A stretch of 64,000 bases of DNA. It comes from Cerasicoccus sp. TK19100. GTDB lineage: Bacteria; Verrucomicrobiota; Verrucomicrobiia; Opitutales; Cerasicoccaceae. The notes beneath the pieces are model-generated. The model searched no databases. It was not told where the DNA came from and worked only from the letters and a program-made list of their open reading frames with translations. Within the stretch, counting starts at the first letter, position 1; each line of letters starts with the position of its first letter. Position numbers and translations under genes: made by a program. The stretch covers positions 372,001 to 436,000 of the forward strand of contig NZ_JAPWDU010000006.1 in assembly GCF_027257155.1 (NCBI RefSeq), read 5' to 3'. Positions 836 to 55,972 of this stretch are shown here, one piece after another.

Positions 836-1753
836 TTATACTACGATAACAGCAGTTGTTGAATCAATACTGCCGGTTAATTCCACTTTAATTCGGAATA
901 GCCTAATCGGAAACCCAAAGGCAAATGCTTCAAATGTTAGTTCATAACTTCCAATGCCCCTAATAATCGGCATTCGAGGCACAACGTCGAGATGGCTATT
1001 GAGAAATACTTCGCATTGGTTTTCAAGGTTCACCGCCAAGAGATCGACGCTTCCTTCAGAAACAGGGAAAATTGCTTGAGCGTATGAGCTGCCTGATCCA
1101 GTAACCTTTAAAGGACTTCTATCTGGCGACTCCGTTGATGAGCCGTCTGAAATATTTTTGATATGCGCCAAGCGAACGCTTGCATCGGATGCTCCAATAT
1201 CACTTCTTGGATTCTTGATCTTCGCATATAATACTCGGACCAAGCGATTTCCGGTGTGATCACCATAGCGCACATTTGGTCCCCATTCGACCTTTTCCAG
1301 TCGGAGGTGACGAGAATAACTACTGCTCCATCGAGCATCAACAATTGCTTGCTTTACGATTCCAAGCACCTCGTCAGGACGCTCAAACTCAGGCGTATTG
1401 CATACAATGAAATCAAGGACACCCTCCTTTTTTGTCGTCTTCTGATTGATTACCAAGAGTTTTTCGAATCCGAGAGCGTAAGCAACTGCCAACTCTTGGT
1501 TCGTGTAAACTGAACCTCGGTTGAATTCTCCCGAAGCTCCAATAACTTTTTCTCTCTGGAAATTGATAAAGAGATAAATATCCGAACTCTTAAGTTCTCC
1601 GATGATTCCGGCGTTTAAATCGCATATGCTTTGAACCTTGATCGCGACATATGGCTCATAGCCTTCAGATTGCAGCCAAGAGGCAACTTCTTCTGAGACC
1701 TTTCGTTCATCGGCTGATGCCTGGCCGCAACTAATAAAGACTTTAGCTTTCAT
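836..1753 (-). CDS. TIR-like domain protein with C-terminal beta-rich domain
   Basis: Residues 1-140 look like a TIR/TIR-like nucleotide-binding fold: a first beta strand AKVFISCG, a predicted alternating alpha/beta pattern, the strand DIYLFINF, and a helix YTNQELAVAYALG placing Glu87 where TIR NADases carry their catalytic glutamate. Residues about 150-305 appear beta-rich and match no family I recognise. I chose the ATG at 1753 (MKAKVF) over a GTG at 1762 because the strand normally starts within a few residues. TIR proteins in bacteria often cleave NAD+ in antiphage defence; whether this one does is inference. It is downstream of the 145-aa gene on the same strand, with an inverted repeat in the 76-bp spacer. 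Lower GC and longer A/T runs than the neighbours suggest acquisition. Confidence 0.6.
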   Translation of the reverse strand: MKAKVFISCGQASADERKVSEEVASWLQSEGYEPYVAIKVQSICDLNAGIIGELKSSDIYLFINFQREKVIGASGEFNRGSVYTNQELAVAYALGFEKLLVINQKTTKKEGVLDFIVCNTPEFERPDEVLGIVKQAIVDARWSSSYSRHLRLEKVEWGPNVRYGDHTGNRLVRVLYAKIKNPRSDIGASDASVRLAHIKNISDGSSTESPDRSPLKVTGSGSSYAQAIFPVSEGSVDLLAVNLENQCEVFLNSHLDVVPRMPIIRGIGSYELTFEAFAFGFPIRLFRIKVELTGSIDSTTAVIVV

Positions 1754-1772
1754 TTTTTGCACAACCTAGAGA

Positions 1773-1826
<54 letters not shown>

Positions 1827-1829
1827 AGA

Positions 1830-2267
1830 TTATTTGCTTTCTAGGTATTCGATCTTGCACTTGGTCTCGCTGGATAGCCCAAACTCAATGAACTCATCAG
1901 TGCTATCAAAGAGTATTGCCTTCCGCTTTTCGATCTCATCGATAAATATTCTCTTATACCCATTTTTCTTCGTTCCTGTTGTGAAAGTCGTTGAGGTTGG
2001 GCTGCTGGCTAACATATCGCCAACTAGGTTGAAGGCTTCCATGCGCATGATAAAATCAGTTCTTATAGTGTCTACGTCACCAAGCGAGACGAAGAACTGA
2101 TTTAGCTTTCCGAGGTCATTATATATTCCGATTTTTGTTCCGTATTCCACGACTTCAACAGTTCCCCGTTTGATATGGACTGTTTTTTGAGCTTCTTCAA
2201 CGATCGGAGAGATCGCACCGAGCTTTAGTGCATCCTGCAAGTCTTCGAGTTGTAATGTGAGTTTCAT
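1830..2267 (-). CDS. Hypothetical protein, 145 aa, upstream partner of the TIR-like gene
   Basis: I do not recognise the family. The 145-residue protein begins MKLTLQLEDLQDALKLGA, has no signal peptide or membrane segment, contains an internal T/S-rich turn (SSPTSTTFTTGTKKNG, about residues 88-103) and ends in a charged region. It appears to be a soluble mixed alpha/beta protein. It is the first gene of a two-gene unit with the TIR-like gene, read in the same direction with a 76-bp spacer. Its AT-rich base composition matches that partner and differs from the GC-rich rnr and GH16 genes on either side, which supports a jointly acquired cassette. A role as regulator, sensor or immunity partner is possible but unproven. 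Confidence 0.6.
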   Translation of the reverse strand: MKLTLQLEDLQDALKLGAISPIVEEAQKTVHIKRGTVEVVEYGTKIGIYNDLGKLNQFFVSLGDVDTIRTDFIMRMEAFNLVGDMLASSPTSTTFTTGTKKNGYKRIFIDEIEKRKAILFDSTDEFIEFGLSSETKCKIEYLESK

Positions 2268-2521
2268 AATTTTATTTCTGAACAGTATTATCGATCACAC
2301 CTCTAAACTTACGAACTGGCTGCATGCAGGGTGTGTTTCGTAGCGCGAGAGTGGCTGTAAAGGTCATGTTGGTCAAGGTTTGAACTTGTTATGAGCTGGT
2401 TTATCTTGGTTTTGTTTGGTTCTTCGGTTCGTGACTTGATGGTAATGATTGAGTAGCAGCTCATGGAACATAAACCGACGCCGTGCTGGTCAACGGAAAT
2501 TGCCTACTGCGGAGAATTAAA

Positions 2522-2728
2522 AACATAGCCACTGTTGTTGCTCTGACAATAGTGGCTATGTTGACGCAACAACAGTGGTTGTGTTGGGGAAACAACAGTA
2601 GTGGCTTTTTCAAAACACAGCATGCTGCTTTTTGAAAACATAGCATAGGGCTTTTTGAAAAAGCCCCAGTAGGCTTTTCGGAAAAGAAGCATAGGGCTTT
2701 TGCAAAACACAGCGTAGGGAAACGCTAT
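2522..2728. repeat. Tandem array A: nine drifting units with an exact 23-bp period
   Basis: The gene-free stretch 2268-2887 contains nine units whose anchors (AACATAG, AACAACAG, AACACAG, AAAGCCCC and similar) fall at 2522, 2545, 2568, 2591, 2614, 2637, 2660, 2683 and 2706, exactly 23 bp apart. Adjacent units resemble each other while distant ones differ. Several are internally palindromic, such as AAAAGCC/GGCTTTT in the unit at 2660 and CAGCATGCTG in the unit at 2614; the first two units are inverted relative to each other. Because 23 is not a multiple of three, the short open frames across it are not believable genes. Nothing else recognisable is present between 2268 and 2521. See array B at 54902-55090. 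Confidence 0.85.
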
Positions 2729-2737
2729 TTTGGCTCG

Positions 2738-2836
2738 GTTGCTTCCGTTGGCACCATGGCTTCAGTTGGTGCCGTTGCTATGGTTGCCTCCGTTGCTATG
2801 GTTGCCTCCGTTGCTTCGGTTGGCTGGAGTGTTTCC
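2738..2836. repeat. Nine-bp-period minisatellite downstream of rnr
   Basis: Eleven 9-bp units of the GTTGCTTCC/GTTGCTATG/GTTGCCTCC type run without a break, including two exact 18-bp copies at 2774-2791 and 2792-2809. The period is a multiple of three. On the minus strand it reads as Thr-Glu-Ala/Thr-Ile-Ala triplets in a frame that overlaps the end of rnr but is shifted relative to it. It directly follows array A and ends about 50 bp short of the rnr stop. Confidence 0.8.
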
Positions 2837-2887: not shown

Positions 2888-5395
2888 CTACTTGTTGCGC
2901 TTGCGCTGGCCGCGGCCGCCGCTTTTGCCACCGGGACTGCTTTTGCCGCTAGGGTTGCGCTTACCTGCCTGACTGCTCTTGCCGCTGGAGCTACTTTTAC
3001 TGCCCTGGCTGCGGCCGCCTTGGCCCCGACTGCTTTGGCTACGGCTGCTTGAGCTGCGGCTGCCTTGGCTGCGGCCCCGGGGTGGGCCACCGCGGCCGCC
3101 GCGGCGGGGCTTGTCCTCGATTTGGTCGGTGAGGCGGAAGTCCATCTGGCGCTTGAAGCGGTCGATGCGTTCGATCACCACCTTGACGTTGTCGCCGACG
3201 CTGTAGCGCTTTTGCTGCTTGCGACCGAGCAAGGCTTGGCCGCCGTCGACGACGTGGTAAATGTCGTCCTGCAAGGTGGAAATGTGGACCATGCCGAAGG
3301 CCATCGTTTGCGTGAGCTCGATGAAGAGGCCGTGGTTGCGGGCGTCGGTAATGACGGCGTCGAACTCGTTTTTCTCGGGGCGCTCGGCCTCGCGCTCGAA
3401 GTATTCGAGGAGCTTGATCTTGTTCGACTCGCGCTCGGCTTCCTGGCTGTTGCGCTCGGTGATCGAGACGTGCTCGCCGAGGCGGTCGAGCTCGTTCTTG
3501 GCGTAGATTTTGGGCGGGCGCGAGGGGGCGCTGTCGTTGCCGGATTTGACCAGGTGAAAGTCAAAAATGCGGTGCACGATCAGGTCCGAGTAGCGGCGGA
3601 TCGGCGAGGTGAAATGCGCGTAAAATTGCTTGGCCAGGCCGTAGTGGCCGTCGGCTTCGGCGCGGTAGCAGGCCTGCTTGAGACTGCGCAAAAAGCTAAT
3701 GCGCAGCGTGTAGCCCTGCGGATGATCTTTGATCGCTTTGAGCAGCTTGGTGACTTCGCTGCGCTTGGTGAGGTCGCCGCATTTGATGCCCGCGATGGCC
3801 ATTTGCTGGCGGAGCTCATCAAGCTTCTCGGGCTCGGGCTCGTCGTGAACGCGGGACAGGTAAGGCAGCTGCGCGTGGGATAACTCTTTGGCGACGACTT
3901 CGTTGGCCAGGAGCATGTATTCCTCGATGAGCTGGTGGCTCTCGTCGTATTCGTGCTGGACGATTTTGTCCGCGTAGCCGTCCTCATCGACGTAGATTTT
4001 CACCTCGGGCATATCGAGCTCGAGGCTGCCTTTTTTAAAGCGATCGCGGCGCAGATTGGAGGCAACTTTCCACAGGGCGCGGACGCCCTTTTGCAGGTCT
4101 TCCAGCTCGTTGTCTTGCAGCTCGTTGAGCGCGCGGCCGGTGGAGCCGGTTTGGTGCGCGGCGGGCAGGGGCGTGGCGCGGATTTTCTCCAAGTCGCTTT
4201 GCTTGAGCAGCGCCAGGGCCTGGGCGTAGGTGAGGCGCTTGTTGGAGCGGATGACGGAATTGGAGAACGACTTTTTGCGCAGAGCGCCCTTGGCGTCGAA
4301 GTCCAGCCAGACCGTTTTCACGAGGCGGTCCTCGGCCTCGACGAGCGAGCAAATGCCGTTGGAGAGCGCGTGCGGGAGCATGGGGATCACGCAGCCGACG
4401 AGGTAGGTGGAGTTGCCGCGCTTCTGGGCCTCGCGGTCGAGCGGCGTGTTGTGCTTCACGTAGGCGGAGACGTCGGCAATGTGCACACCGATCTTCAGGC
4501 CACCGCCTTTTTTATACTCGATGGAAAGGGCGTCGTCGAAGTCCTTGGCGTCGTCCGGGTCGATGGTGAAGGTAAAGATCTTGCGCGCATCAAAGCGGTT
4601 GCCGATGTCGCTGTTGGTGACCTTGGGCGAGACTTCGAGCACCTGCTCGCTGACGGCCTGCGGGAACTCCGGGGAGAGGTCAAACTTGTGCAGCAACGCC
4701 TTGAACTCGGCACCCGGCTCGTGGGTCTGGCCGAGCACTTCGATGATTTCGCCCTCGGGGTTGAGGTGGCGCTGACGCCATTCGAGCATGCGCACAATGA
4801 CCTTGTCGTCCTCCTTGGGGCGCGGCAGAAAAGTTGCCTGTTCGGGCGGCGGCACGAGGATGTCCTGGATGATGCGCGGGTCGTCCGGGATGACATACCA
4901 GAACATGCGGGAGCGTTTCAGGGTGCCGGGAAAGGTCTCTCGCTTGCGCTGCAAAATGCGGATAACGCGGCCAAACTGCATGTTGTCAAACTGGCTGCGG
5001 CGGCGGTTGCCGCGGTCGCGTCCGTGGAAGCGTTTTTCAAAGTCATCCACGCGGACGAGGACCTTGTCGCCGTGCATGGCCAGGCCGGTGTCTTCGGCTT
5101 TTATCTCCAGGGGCTCACGGGTGGCCTGCCCGGGCTTTTGCTCGGGGAAGACGCGGGCGGAGCCGCTCTGGCGGAAACTGATGTCGCCGGCGACGAGGTC
5201 GGCGTCTTTGGGGAGGACAAAGCGGTCTTTCTTGACGCGGGCAATGACGCCTTCGTCGAGCAGTTTATGCAGGGTTCGGCGCAGTTGCTTGCGCTCGGTT
5301 TTGCGGAGCAGGAGGGCGTCAGACAGTTCGTCCTGGCGTAGCGGGGAATAATCTTTTTTCCCCAGTAATTCGATAATCGATTCTTCTAGAGCCAT
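2888..5395 (-). CDS. rnr: Ribonuclease R
   Basis: This 835-aa 3'-5' exoribonuclease of the RNase II/R family degrades structured RNA in mRNA turnover and rRNA quality control. An N-terminal winged-helix region (about 1-60) is followed by cold-shock-like domains and the RNB catalytic domain, whose signature DPDDAKDFDDA (279-289) supplies the Asp ligands for Mg2+. A C-terminal S1 domain lies at about 675-765, with the strand GMVHISTL near its start. The last 70 residues are a low-complexity Arg/Gly/Ser/Lys tail (GRGGPPRGRSQGSRSSSS), as in many RNase R proteins that engage structured RNA. The ATG at 5395 gives the standard N-terminus. The gene diverges from the sensor kinase at 5607. Confidence 0.95.
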   Translation of the reverse strand: MALEESIIELLGKKDYSPLRQDELSDALLLRKTERKQLRRTLHKLLDEGVIARVKKDRFVLPKDADLVAGDISFRQSGSARVFPEQKPGQATREPLEIKAEDTGLAMHGDKVLVRVDDFEKRFHGRDRGNRRRSQFDNMQFGRVIRILQRKRETFPGTLKRSRMFWYVIPDDPRIIQDILVPPPEQATFLPRPKEDDKVIVRMLEWRQRHLNPEGEIIEVLGQTHEPGAEFKALLHKFDLSPEFPQAVSEQVLEVSPKVTNSDIGNRFDARKIFTFTIDPDDAKDFDDALSIEYKKGGGLKIGVHIADVSAYVKHNTPLDREAQKRGNSTYLVGCVIPMLPHALSNGICSLVEAEDRLVKTVWLDFDAKGALRKKSFSNSVIRSNKRLTYAQALALLKQSDLEKIRATPLPAAHQTGSTGRALNELQDNELEDLQKGVRALWKVASNLRRDRFKKGSLELDMPEVKIYVDEDGYADKIVQHEYDESHQLIEEYMLLANEVVAKELSHAQLPYLSRVHDEPEPEKLDELRQQMAIAGIKCGDLTKRSEVTKLLKAIKDHPQGYTLRISFLRSLKQACYRAEADGHYGLAKQFYAHFTSPIRRYSDLIVHRIFDFHLVKSGNDSAPSRPPKIYAKNELDRLGEHVSITERNSQEAERESNKIKLLEYFEREAERPEKNEFDAVITDARNHGLFIELTQTMAFGMVHISTLQDDIYHVVDGGQALLGRKQQKRYSVGDNVKVVIERIDRFKRQMDFRLTDQIEDKPRRGGRGGPPRGRSQGSRSSSSRSQSSRGQGGRSQGSKSSSSGKSSQAGKRNPSGKSSPGGKSGGRGQRKRNK

Positions 5396-52919: not shown

Positions 52920-53417
52920 CTAATTATCGGGATTTGCCTGTAACGCGGCGAACGCTTTGATCGGGAACGCATTCTTCTGCGTGCATTGCGGGATTTCGTT
53001 CAGCTTCGCCGCCAAGTCGAAAGGAGTGAGATCTTCCCGTGATAAGTTCCATTTCGCATTTCGAACCAGATCCACCATGATACCGCTTAGCTGGCGATTG
53101 CCCACTTTTGAGAAATGAACCGGGCTTAAATTGGGCACCATCAAAGACTCGAATACGAACTCAAATCCATTCTCGTACAGGCAATCTCGGATCGCTTCAT
53201 TGGCTTGCTTGATAAACGCGTCATCATCGTTCACGCCCTTGCCGTAGAATGCCGCTGAAAGCATGCTCTTAGTATGCGTGAGCAGAATGTAGCCCGTTCG
53301 ATTGGAGGTAAAGTAGTCCGCCGCCCAATCGCAAAAGTGGTTGGGGTTCGGTTCCAGTGTGCTCTCTGGCTTTTCATAAATTTTCTTCGCCAGTTTATGA
53401 GTGAGTCGATAGATCAT
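52920..53417 (-). CDS. Hypothetical DUF6933-like protein
   Basis: From the ATG at 53417 the 165-aa product starts MIYRLTHKLAKKIYEKPEST, has NHFCDWAADYFTSNRTGYIL and LLTHTKSMLSAAFYGKGVND, and ends in a helix-rich stretch. The layout (start, then a sentence-long tract reading lTNtks-l-v) is like proteins I recall as DUF6933, with no known function. The upstream extension from 53570 overlaps the wHTH gene and is not used. It is the last gene of a three-gene minus-strand cassette, 20 bp after the wHTH gene. Confidence 0.65.
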   Translation of the reverse strand: MIYRLTHKLAKKIYEKPESTLEPNPNHFCDWAADYFTSNRTGYILLTHTKSMLSAAFYGKGVNDDDAFIKQANEAIRDCLYENGFEFVFESLMVPNLSPVHFSKVGNRQLSGIMVDLVRNAKWNLSREDLTPFDLAAKLNEIPQCTQKNAFPIKAFAALQANPDN

Positions 53418-53436
53418 GCGCTGGTATTGAAATGTA

Positions 53437-54201
53437 TTAGTCGAGATCGGGGATCGCCTCTCGATCAACCAGTAGTTGAATCGAGCGCGCTTGACCCGGT
53501 GTGCGCTTGAGGTATCCGCCGGTTTCCAGCCGTTGCAGCATTTCACGGACGGTAGGCGCGGTGACTTCAAAATAGTCCTGCAAGTCTTTCTCGGCGGGAG
53601 CCTTGCGCTGGACCTTTATGTAATAATAAATGAAGGCGAGGTATTGGCCGTGCTTGTCGGTCAAAATAGCTTGTTGCGATGTAGCGGGTTTCTTCTTCGC
53701 CTTCGGCGCTTGCTTGGCGTCGTCCAAGCTCCAGATGAGCGCGCCGGATTTTTTTGCTTTTTGATAATCGGCGCGGAATGATTTGCTGTAGTTTTTGCCG
53801 AGGAGCACGGAGGTTGGCCTGAGCAGGCCATCGCATATCATGTGCCCGGCAAATGGGATCAAACACGTCTCCACCAGACTGTCGTATGCCAGCATTTCCT
53901 CCAGAGGAGTCGTCAGGGACTGAGCCGCATAGCATTGGCCTGATTCCATGTGGAGAAACGCGTCATGGTCGCGATAGGTTTTCAAATAGCAAAACTGTCC
54001 CCGCACGGCTTTTATGATAGCCGCCACCATCTCGTCGTCTTCGAATGCCGCCAATTCCGCTTGATTGAGCGTTGGCAACTGGGCGTGCATCTCATCTCGC
54101 GCGTCGACCCATTCCTCTAATGAGGCAGGGTTCTCGCTAAATTCTGATAGGAGGGCTTTGTAGCGGGTCAGGAATTCTACGGCAATCTCGGGTGAGATCA
54201 T
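53437..54201 (-). CDS. Hypothetical protein with C-terminal LexA-type winged helix
   Basis: The 254-aa protein has an unrecognised N-terminal half (helical, with SLVETCLIPFAGHMICDGLL). Its C-terminal region (about 182-254) resembles the LexA DNA-binding winged helix: HGQYLAFIYYYIKVQRKAPA, then EKDLQDYFEVTAPTVREMLQ and RLETGGYLKRTPGQARSIQL. It may be a regulator in which the N-terminal half senses a signal. It is 5 bp after the 109-aa gene stop and 20 bp before the DUF6933-like gene. Confidence 0.7.
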   Translation of the reverse strand: MISPEIAVEFLTRYKALLSEFSENPASLEEWVDARDEMHAQLPTLNQAELAAFEDDEMVAAIIKAVRGQFCYLKTYRDHDAFLHMESGQCYAAQSLTTPLEEMLAYDSLVETCLIPFAGHMICDGLLRPTSVLLGKNYSKSFRADYQKAKKSGALIWSLDDAKQAPKAKKKPATSQQAILTDKHGQYLAFIYYYIKVQRKAPAEKDLQDYFEVTAPTVREMLQRLETGGYLKRTPGQARSIQLLVDREAIPDLD

Positions 54202-54206
54202 CAGTT

Positions 54207-54536
54207 TTAGCTAAATTGGTGAATGATGCGCTTGAGGTAATTCACGAGACCTTCGCTGAAGCCGTCCAGGTCTTCCTCGGTGAGCATGCCGAGGGTGCAC
54301 ATGCCAATGAGGTTCTCAGTCATGCAGGAACGCGAACGTTGGCCGAGCGCGTTCTCCAGTTTTTTCGCCTCACGCTCCATGGACTCAACCGTGCTCCAGA
54401 AGCACTCGGTCGGGCTTTTTGCCGCCTCCGTTAGCTGGCGGGCGAATTCGGCATTACGCTTGGCTAGGTATCGATCACGCAGCGGGTCGACGATGGCGCA
54501 GTAGTGTTTCCAATCAGATTCTTTGGGCTTGGGCAT
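54207..54536 (-). CDS. Hypothetical 109-aa protein
   Basis: I do not recognise it. The soluble, highly charged, largely helical protein starts MPKPKESDWKHYCAIVDPLR and ends SEGLVNYLKRIIHQFS. It has no membrane segment or metal motif. It is the first gene of the three-gene minus-strand cassette; the wHTH gene follows 5 bp later. Upstream lie the MITE-like element and array B. Confidence 0.6.
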   Translation of the reverse strand: MPKPKESDWKHYCAIVDPLRDRYLAKRNAEFARQLTEAAKSPTECFWSTVESMEREAKKLENALGQRSRSCMTENLIGMCTLGMLTEEDLDGFSEGLVNYLKRIIHQFS

Positions 54537-54625: not shown

Positions 54626-54899
54626 CTAGAGCATTTTTCATCTAAATTGGCCGATCAGGCCGCAGTGATTTTTCGTGTCCAGCAAGGCGGCTTAAGCGTA
54701 GCGCACTGGAAGTGCGTGAGCGAAAAGCCAACGAAGCTGACGCGGAAAAACGCTCGGTTACAGGCTTGGGGCCAGATTGGAAGGTCGCGGCGTTGGCATA
54801 TCAATCACGGGCTTCCAGCCCGCTCAATCAATGCCGCCTTGCGCTGCTTCCAATCTCTTCCCCACCTGATTCGGCCAAGTTAGATGAAAAGTGCTCTAG
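54626..54899. mobile_element. MITE-like element, 274 bp, no transposase
   Basis: Terminal inverted repeats 54626-54658 and 54866-54899 (start CTAGAGCA.TTTTCATCTAA) match over 33 bp with two substitutions and one indel. Similarity continues inward to GCAAGGCGGC (54682-54691 and its complement from 54833). TA occurs at both outer ends, as in TA-targeting IS630/Tc1-mariner elements. The interior has no gene. The right end abuts array B. Confidence 0.75.
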
Positions 54900-54901
54900 T
54901 T

Positions 54902-55090
54902 CCATGTATGCCCGAACTACGACCGAGCGTGTGCTCAACATACGCCCGTGTGTTAGACCAACATACGCCCGAATATCAGGGCAACACAGGTAGCTGTTTT
55001 TATTGAAGCGTCGGCGACACTTCGGCTGAGCGTCGGCGATGCTTCGTTGAACAGTCGGCGACGCTTGGACCTACGGTCGCCGATACTTAG
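54902..55090. repeat. Tandem array B: 22-23-bp-period dyad units
   Basis: Units anchored at AACATACGCCCG (54937 and 54960), AACACAGG (54983) and AAGCGTCGG (55006) are exactly 23 bp apart. Three more GTCGGCGA/GTCGCCGA units follow at 22-bp steps, with degenerate units before 54937. Many units are dyads with changed arms: AACATAC/GTGTGTT, AACACAG/CTGTTTT, GAAGCGTC/GACACTTC. The unit at 54983 closely resembles the unit at 2614 in array A. The gap 55091-55231 contains nothing else recognisable. Confidence 0.8.
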
Positions 55091-55231: not shown

Positions 55232-55972
55232 TTAGGCTCTAACTGCGTCGATCACCAGCGCGAGGGGATGCTTCAGCAAGGTATCCCAATAGCCGGGCGC
55301 GAACTCACCGAGGCGCGATTCGTCGATAATGGGGTTGATCAGTTGGACGTCTTTAAAGCCGGCGCGTTCGAGGGCGGCGCGGTATTCCTCGTTGGGGATG
55401 TAATAGTTTTCGATGCGGAATTCGCCATCGCTCGAAGGAAACACAAAGACGATCTTGGCGCCGATTTGCGCCTCGTCCTCCAGTTCGATTTTCGAGCCGT
55501 ATTCCGCATAAACATCCTGCGGGTAGTGGTAGATATTGTTGTTCGTCGTGATCGTCACGAAACGGCCGCCGGGCTTCACGTGGCGCGCAATGCCGCGGCA
55601 GTAGGCATCGAGCTCGTCGATGGTGCGCGTGTAGGGCAGGAGGTAGGCGCTCATGGCGAGATCGTAGTCGAGCTGCGGGCCCTCCGCGGTGGCGTCCGCA
55701 ACCTGGTAATCGATGCCGAGCGGCTGGCGTTGCTCTTCGGCGCGCGCGAGCTTGATCTGCTCTTCAGAAATATCCACGCCCAGCATTGAGGCCGGCCCTC
55801 TCGCCATGACCTTGCGCGTGTAGTGCCCGGAGCCGCATGCGAGGTCGACGACCTTCAAGCCCGTCACATCGCCAATCTGCCCGATGAAGGAAGGCTCCTC
55901 GATCATGTAGCGCCACGGGTCCTGCTTGGCTTCCACGTATTGCTTGGCGATCTGGTTGTAATCGGTCGACAT
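55232..55972 (-). CDS. Class I SAM-dependent methyltransferase
   Basis: The 246-aa protein has the Rossmann methyltransferase motif I VVDLACGSGHYTRKV, motif II region MLGVDISEEQIKLARAEE, and post-motif strands (YDLAMSAYLLPYTRTIDEL, HVKPGGRFVTITTN). The C-terminal part (YYIPNEEYRAALERAGFKDV) is typical of small-molecule methyltransferases. The substrate is unknown. It is 49 bp past the smc stop on the same strand. Confidence 0.88.
   Translation of the reverse strand: MSTDYNQIAKQYVEAKQDPWRYMIEEPSFIGQIGDVTGLKVVDLACGSGHYTRKVMARGPASMLGVDISEEQIKLARAEEQRQPLGIDYQVADATAEGPQLDYDLAMSAYLLPYTRTIDELDAYCRGIARHVKPGGRFVTITTNNNIYHYPQDVYAEYGSKIELEDEAQIGAKIVFVFPSSDGEFRIENYYIPNEEYRAALERAGFKDVQLINPIIDESRLGEFAPGYWDTLLKHPLALVIDAVRA

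Follow-up and report, generated by a model that had tools for sequence, protein, structure and literature searches.

Several kinds of known element come close to the sequences described here. The BOX elements of Streptococcus pneumoniae are modular interspersed repeats with a variable number of an inner unit, and we know of no link between them and integrons. REP and BIME elements are short intergenic palindromes that occur in many copies, often as mosaics behind genes; a tetranucleotide of the GTAG type precedes each REP palindrome (PMC8266576). Two-fold or hairpin sites are also found in integrons. Their attC sites vary in sequence and keep their structure, attI sites have been little characterised except in class 1 integrons, and CALIN and In0 are the terms for integron pieces that have no adjoining integrase (PMC9024848).

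In this study, we followed up an array of tandem dyads (array B) and its sister array (array A) in the window, the whole 64-kb stretch of DNA, from a marine Cerasicoccus, that was analysed. The arrays are modular like BOX elements, from which they differ in sequence and unit length. They resemble REP/BIME elements in being short, intergenic, palindromic and numerous, but their 22-23-bp units run head to tail. Like attC and attI they consist of two-fold or hairpin sites; however, an attC is one hairpin behind a cassette, whereas the arrays are tandem and the leader or integrase separates them from the cassettes. Compared with CALIN and In0, the loci described here are attI-like leaders with one or a few genes, scattered over one chromosome and mostly adjoined by an array. 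Judging by titles and abstract openings, we found no paper on such arrays at integrons or in Cerasicoccus.

Anatomy and copies of the arrays

The initial annotation placed anchors of array B at 54937, 54960, 54983 and 55006, exactly 23 bp apart and then continuing at 22 bp. This spacing was borne out, with the anchor words AACATACG at the first two positions, AACACAGG at 54983 and AAGCGTCG at 55006. The dyads exceed chance by both scores that we applied. The alternating-dyad score reached 47.2 at array A and 46.6 at array B, compared with 41.0 at the best other place in the window and a top maximum of 45.4 over 200 shuffles of the whole 64 kb. In a second score, which looks for four dyads at 21.5-24 bp spacing, array B was reached by 0/200 local shuffles and array A by 1/200. 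Of the complementary arm pairs listed in the annotation, AACACAG/CTGTTTT of the 54983 unit is complementary in part only. The assignment of arrays A and B to the same family holds for architecture and position; their sequence likeness is slight, the best match being 35 bp at 83% (E 1.5e-5), and this is the only pair of array families compared formally. The features of both loci are given in Table 1.

Table 1. Features at the array A and array B loci (window coordinates)
Feature	Position	Strand	Basis
Cassette gene 2, GC 0.44, no Pfam or PADLOC hit	836..1762	-	
attC-like site between two cassette genes, arm score 8/8	1760..1826	-	
Cassette gene 1, GC 0.42, no Pfam hit	1830..2267	-	
Integron leader adjoining array A, TTGAC box and attI-like end (AATACTGTTC)	2283..2479	-	
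Array A, sister array of array B	2515..2740	+	blastn copies, dyad score
RNB-domain (RNase R-type) gene, 3' end toward array A	2888..5395	-	
Outer-side gene trio at array B: one with a winged-helix-type DNA-binding domain, one with DUF6933, one without a Pfam hit	52920..54536	-	
MITE-like insertion outward of array B; inverted ends of 29 nt with 93% complementarity, CTAG at each end	54626..54899	.	
Array B outer (variable) part, four 23-bp units	54913..55004	+	arm covariation across copies
Array B core, four 22-23-bp units	55005..55089	+	conserved among 20 copies
Methyltransferase-type gene, 3' end toward array B	55232..55972	-	gene call

Two side observations concern these loci. A C. maritimus locus contains a match of 274 bp (95%) to the MITE-like element beside array B, and a 9/18-bp tandem repeat (GTTGCTTCGGTTGGC type) adjoins array A at window positions 2730-2825 and recurs in a few other A copies.

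The annotation had made its case depend on further copies in the genome (5.07 Mb in 13 contigs), and these exist: blastn found 20 B loci (E <= 2.2e-8) and 27 A loci (E <= 2.9e-7). Among 54 genomes, family B turned up in the window genome and in each of the other three from Cerasicoccus, with 15 rows (14 loci), 3 rows and 1 row, and was absent from the remaining 50, which belong to the same family and order. Two of these other three Cerasicoccus genomes also contained family A, with 14 and 5 rows, and it was absent from six genomes of three other genera of the same family. An exact B pattern, searched in one genome per species for 84,980 species (a collection that may omit the window's own species), matched C. 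frondis at eight places and C. maritimus at one, and viral contigs held no exact match to one B pattern. Thus, among the genomes searched, families A and B are confined to the genus Cerasicoccus.

Across the copies, the usual distance from one dyad centre to the next is 11-11.5 bp, so that half-sites alternate in direction. The 27 A arrays contain 263 dyads vs 130 in shuffles, and the 20 B arrays 174 vs 97. Copies of B share a four-unit core with about three or four variable 23-bp units on its outer side, and often have a further conserved end, CCGACTTTTCATGCTGAAAGTATGCC, which the window copy lacks. Copies of A differ in length by whole 23-bp steps, and their arms are drawn from a limited set of words, which changes from species to species in both orientations alike. 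The same plan recurs beyond these two families: arrays A, B, E, F, H and I are visibly different in sequence and share the 22-23-bp layout, I, F, H and E score above all 200 of their 200 shuffles, and in family I the palindromes are exactly 23 bp apart at 16/16 loci. Since the families retain this plan despite their different sequences, it is probably the symmetry and the spacing that are read.

Covariation of the dyad arms

Arm pairs had been described as differing between units while staying complementary, which was taken to suggest selection for a hairpin or two-fold protein site. Such compensatory change is present in the outer units of family B and at one pair in family I, is absent from family A, and is not clear in the B core. 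Over the outer units of 29 B arrays from two species, we counted 446 Watson-Crick pairs vs 365.5 (sd 13.4) after redealing the 3' arms within each unit position, with the relatedness of copies left unweighted. In the 20 arrays of the window genome alone, the figures were 3.86 vs 3.10 pairs per 8, a value reached by 0/1000 shuffles. Taken singly in this genome, units -3 and -2 covary clearly (0 and 7 of 2000 shuffles reach the observed value), unit -4 weakly (37) and unit -1 not clearly (235). The arms of the B core scarcely vary between copies; here the observed values were reached by 238 and 257 of 2000 shuffles, and by 280 and 40 of 2000 once C. frondis was added. In family I, one pair comprises 40 T-A, 14 C-G, 3 T-G, 7 C-A and 2 others (Fisher p 1e-6). 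Within-unit covariation was not found in family A, either among 182 units (5.14 vs 5.12 shuffled) or among 92 units of C. frondis (5.38 vs 5.39).

The mismatches bear on the level at which the arms are read. In the outer units of B both kinds are depleted (G-T 55 vs 70.5 expected, A-C 80 vs 92.5), and the covariation tolerating G-U pairs that marks structured RNA was not found there. Because there is no preference for G-U in B, a DNA dyad fits better than an RNA hairpin, and the mismatch pattern of this family favours DNA over RNA. Family A leans weakly the other way, with 120 A-C vs 88 G-T mismatches on the plus strand.

Integron leaders, integrases and the outer side

The integron setting of the arrays was unexpected and is not part of the initial annotation. 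Read on the minus strand, the array A locus runs from the RNB-domain gene through array A, the leader, cassette gene 1 and the attC-like site to cassette gene 2, beyond which lies the 3' end of a plus-strand gene. No integrase gene was found between array A and its cassettes, and the locus looks like an integron without an integrase. As in integrons, an attC-like site separates the cassette genes, and it has the full score of our detector, for which score-8 hits arise once per 2.24 million shuffled strand-bases and which was tuned on six sites including this one. At the array loci, the detector gave score 8 at three places, all on the outer side and in sense; at score 7, three hits were outer and in sense (one of them doubtful), two inner and in sense, and two antisense.

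The leader, with a promoter-like TTGAC box and an end like AATACTGTTC, sits between array and cassette gene and resembles the sequence upstream of the first C. maritimus cassette. The array A leader belongs to type 1, which was not seen adjoining an integrase; types 2 and 3 sit upstream of integrases. This leader is one of the seeds of its model, and it was also recovered by a search from another locus. Leader models matched on the outer side of 17/47 A and B arrays, within 1.6 kb, and on the inner side of none (0/47); by type these were 12, 3 and 2, the match at A132 being weak. In three other Cerasicoccus genomes, the leader was on the outer side of 6/36 arrays and the inner side of 0/36. 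One further A/B array adjoins broken integrase pieces, and at 29/47 neither a leader nor an integrase was detected. Array B is among the latter, as the three leader models found none beside it.

Ten of the 17 leaders at A/B arrays were model seeds, so that genome-wide leader searches are the better test. Searches with three leaders, query loci left out, yielded 23 further loci, 18 of them with a clear array, 4 with a weak one or a relic, and 1 with none. By simple arithmetic, 47 stretches of 400 bp make up 0.4% of the genome. A leader picked at an array led to 11 further loci: eight A or B arrays, one array of another sequence (D; 11/200 shuffles reach it), one doubtful relic (85/200) and one C. 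frondis leader without an array (199/200). The leader of the C. frondis integrase led to three further loci, with arrays A, A and I, and that of the C. maritimus integrase to nine, namely five B, one F and one H (0/200 each), one weak array G (29/200) and one relic. We considered whether array and leader form a single mobile unit. This idea found no support, as leader types 1 and 2 each occur with both A and B arrays, type 3 with arrays of A, B and I, and by eye the spacer that separates array from leader did not look conserved.

Arrays also adjoin integrases themselves. In C. frondis a TIGR02249 match over cut-off lies about 80-150 bp from a B array, and in the window genome this integrase model gives broken, below-cut-off pieces at two places, one adjoining array L016 of family B and the other, on contig C5, some 90 bp away from an array of family I. 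Arrays at integrases thus belong to B (window genome and C. frondis), I (window genome), and E together with an A-like array (C. maritimus). In 4/5 integrase loci seen the array lies beyond the integrase 3' end, and array E in this position in C. maritimus was reached by 0/200 shuffles. Genome G002 has an integrase with a single internal stop and no recognised array adjoining it, and no match to A or B arrays was obtained at the integrase loci of G010 and G011, which represent two further families of the order. Separately, the AT-rich spacer past the G010 integrase (L221:1389-1526) has an alternating-dyad score of 44.4 at L221:1446, with shuffles that are not composition-matched. The C. maritimus integron itself (L220:180-3434) has a row of six cassette genes that are low in GC, have typical attC sites and read divergently from the integrase gene.

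With the conserved array end drawn to the right and the right-hand gene scored, this gene has its 3' end toward the array at 36/46 loci (B 15/20, A 21/26), one further A locus having no gene there. Same-strand contexts were split 18 to 6, with 18 convergent and 3 divergent, and two loci had no gene on one side; genes were called by a simple hexamer model that misses atypical ones. The outer side is lower in GC at 35/47 arrays, two loci with missing right-hand sequence being scored as contrary. Outer reading frames with GC < 0.53 occur at 31/47 arrays, and in 26/31 the nearest reads away from the array. Among the outer low-GC proteins, 7/25 scanned pass the Pfam cut-off (CAP12/PCTIR TIR, AbiGi, BRO-N, acyltransferase, beta-lactamase-fold, BRCT and DUF6985), and 2/10 gave strong PADLOC matches. 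Defence-like, cassette-type genes adjoin arrays at L140:4435-5352 and L121:4535-5281 (CAP12/PCTIR TIR, PADLOC PDC-S35, and AbiGi).

Comparison with sister species shows conserved arrays beside differing outer stretches. At B114, B119, B123, B126 and B128, the host gene and genes farther out have conserved counterparts in C. frondis or C. maritimus, and the stretch between them differs. Conservation at B116 and B118 covers both flanks and extends as far as the array or across it, with no exchanged stretch. For 27/47 loci there was no counterpart in the sister-species stretches compared. In the pairs L014/L058, L010/L046 and L019/L033 the likeness stops at the outer end of the array, in L007/L040 the C. 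maritimus locus has lost most of the array, and the two flanks of L002 are found at two different C. frondis arrays. No common motif was seen by eye at the far junction of the exchanged stretches in six comparisons.

What the arrays may be

Our leading reading, which remains tentative at a probability of about 0.4, is that these are DNA-level arrays of two-fold sites bordering integron platforms. Array B would be one member of a Cerasicoccus superfamily of DNA elements, with two-fold sites of approximately 16-18 bp recurring every 22-23 bp. Such arrays follow a host gene at its 3' end, and a sizeable share of them adjoin an integron leader or integrase on one fixed side. The tandem sites would most likely be bound by a putative dimeric protein that occupies them together or, less likely, by a factor that recognises extruded hairpins. 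We infer that the array may act as a border, separating the host gene from the cassette promoter and staying put while cassettes turn over alongside. Counting against this reading are the 29/47 arrays with no detected leader or integrase, array B included, the lack of within-unit covariation in family A, the conservation of both flanks at B116 and B118, and the G002 integrase and the C. frondis leader that lack a recognised array.

The main rival reading, nearly as probable, takes the arrays for interspersed repeats of a modular kind, selfish or neutral like BIME or BOX elements, lodged in tolerated gaps behind genes where integrons settle as well and so become their neighbours. The many arrays without a detected integron (29/47), the excess of convergent over divergent contexts, the whole-unit length steps of A and the split flanks of L002, as after recombination between copies, all agree with this. 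However, the fixed side and direction of the leaders (17 outer, 0 inner), their short distances and the 18/23 leader loci with a clear array exceed what a mere preference for gaps would give, and for family B neither a transposase nor fixed ends were found. A REP/RAYT origin was prompted by an RTAG motif in part of the family A units and by eight Y1 transposase matches, two of which lie close to an A array, at distances of up to about 0.8 and 2.8 kb. It was set aside because B and I lack the tetranucleotide and most transposase flanks match other repeats. Between one Y1 transposase gene and a family-A array there is a different tandem repeat of about 30 bp (AAGGCTGGNGTAGNATAGG type, L090:1540-1960).

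A role as RNA hairpins that terminate or stabilise transcripts, with each array transcribed as the 3' end of its neighbour gene, seems improbable, even though the right-hand gene usually ends toward the conserved end, folding z-scores on the gene-sense strand are -4.88 for A and -2.53 for B, and the A-C excess in A is what gene-sense wobble would give. Alternating inverted repeats by themselves raise folding scores, terminator-like matches are near the shuffled mean (2 vs 1.5, 3 vs 1.6), Rfam gave four matches up to E 1 at 13 loci with none at threshold, and both mismatch kinds are depleted in the outer units of B. We hold it similarly improbable that mutation alone made the arrays, with template switching perfecting quasi-palindromes, slippage adding 23-bp units and arms covarying without selection. 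Whole-unit gains and losses and the identical word changes in both orientations between species would follow from it, but one 22-23-bp plan in different sequences and the siting beside integrons are left unexplained. Finally, arrays adjoin leaders and integrases, and units of A and outer units of B often start with AAC and finish with GTT, as if they were integron recombination sites (attC or attI) themselves. This is very improbable: E, F, H and I units lack these ends, the attI-like end sits in the leader between array and cassette, and the typical attC of the genus looks different. An attC is a single hairpin with AAC/GTT core boxes at a cassette 3' end, whereas the arrays consist of 4 to 8 or more tandem dyads at the opposite end, with attC-like sites separate from them; the attC idea was dropped on seeing the real attC sites of C. 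maritimus.

An extension of the border reading, doubtful as it stands, would be a distributed integron, in which Cerasicoccus keeps one or two integrase genes (those of the window genome being broken) along with some twenty dispersed attI-like platforms, the majority with an array at the boundary. The arrays would then represent a novel class of site at integron platforms, a border or a point of recruitment recognised by its structure, possibly by the integrase, an enzyme that already recognises attC by shape.

The arrays offer a case in which a dyad plan is retained under sequence change. Cerasicoccus, as a genus with numerous scattered attI-like platforms, the majority behind one kind of array, would make it testable what fixes an integron in place.
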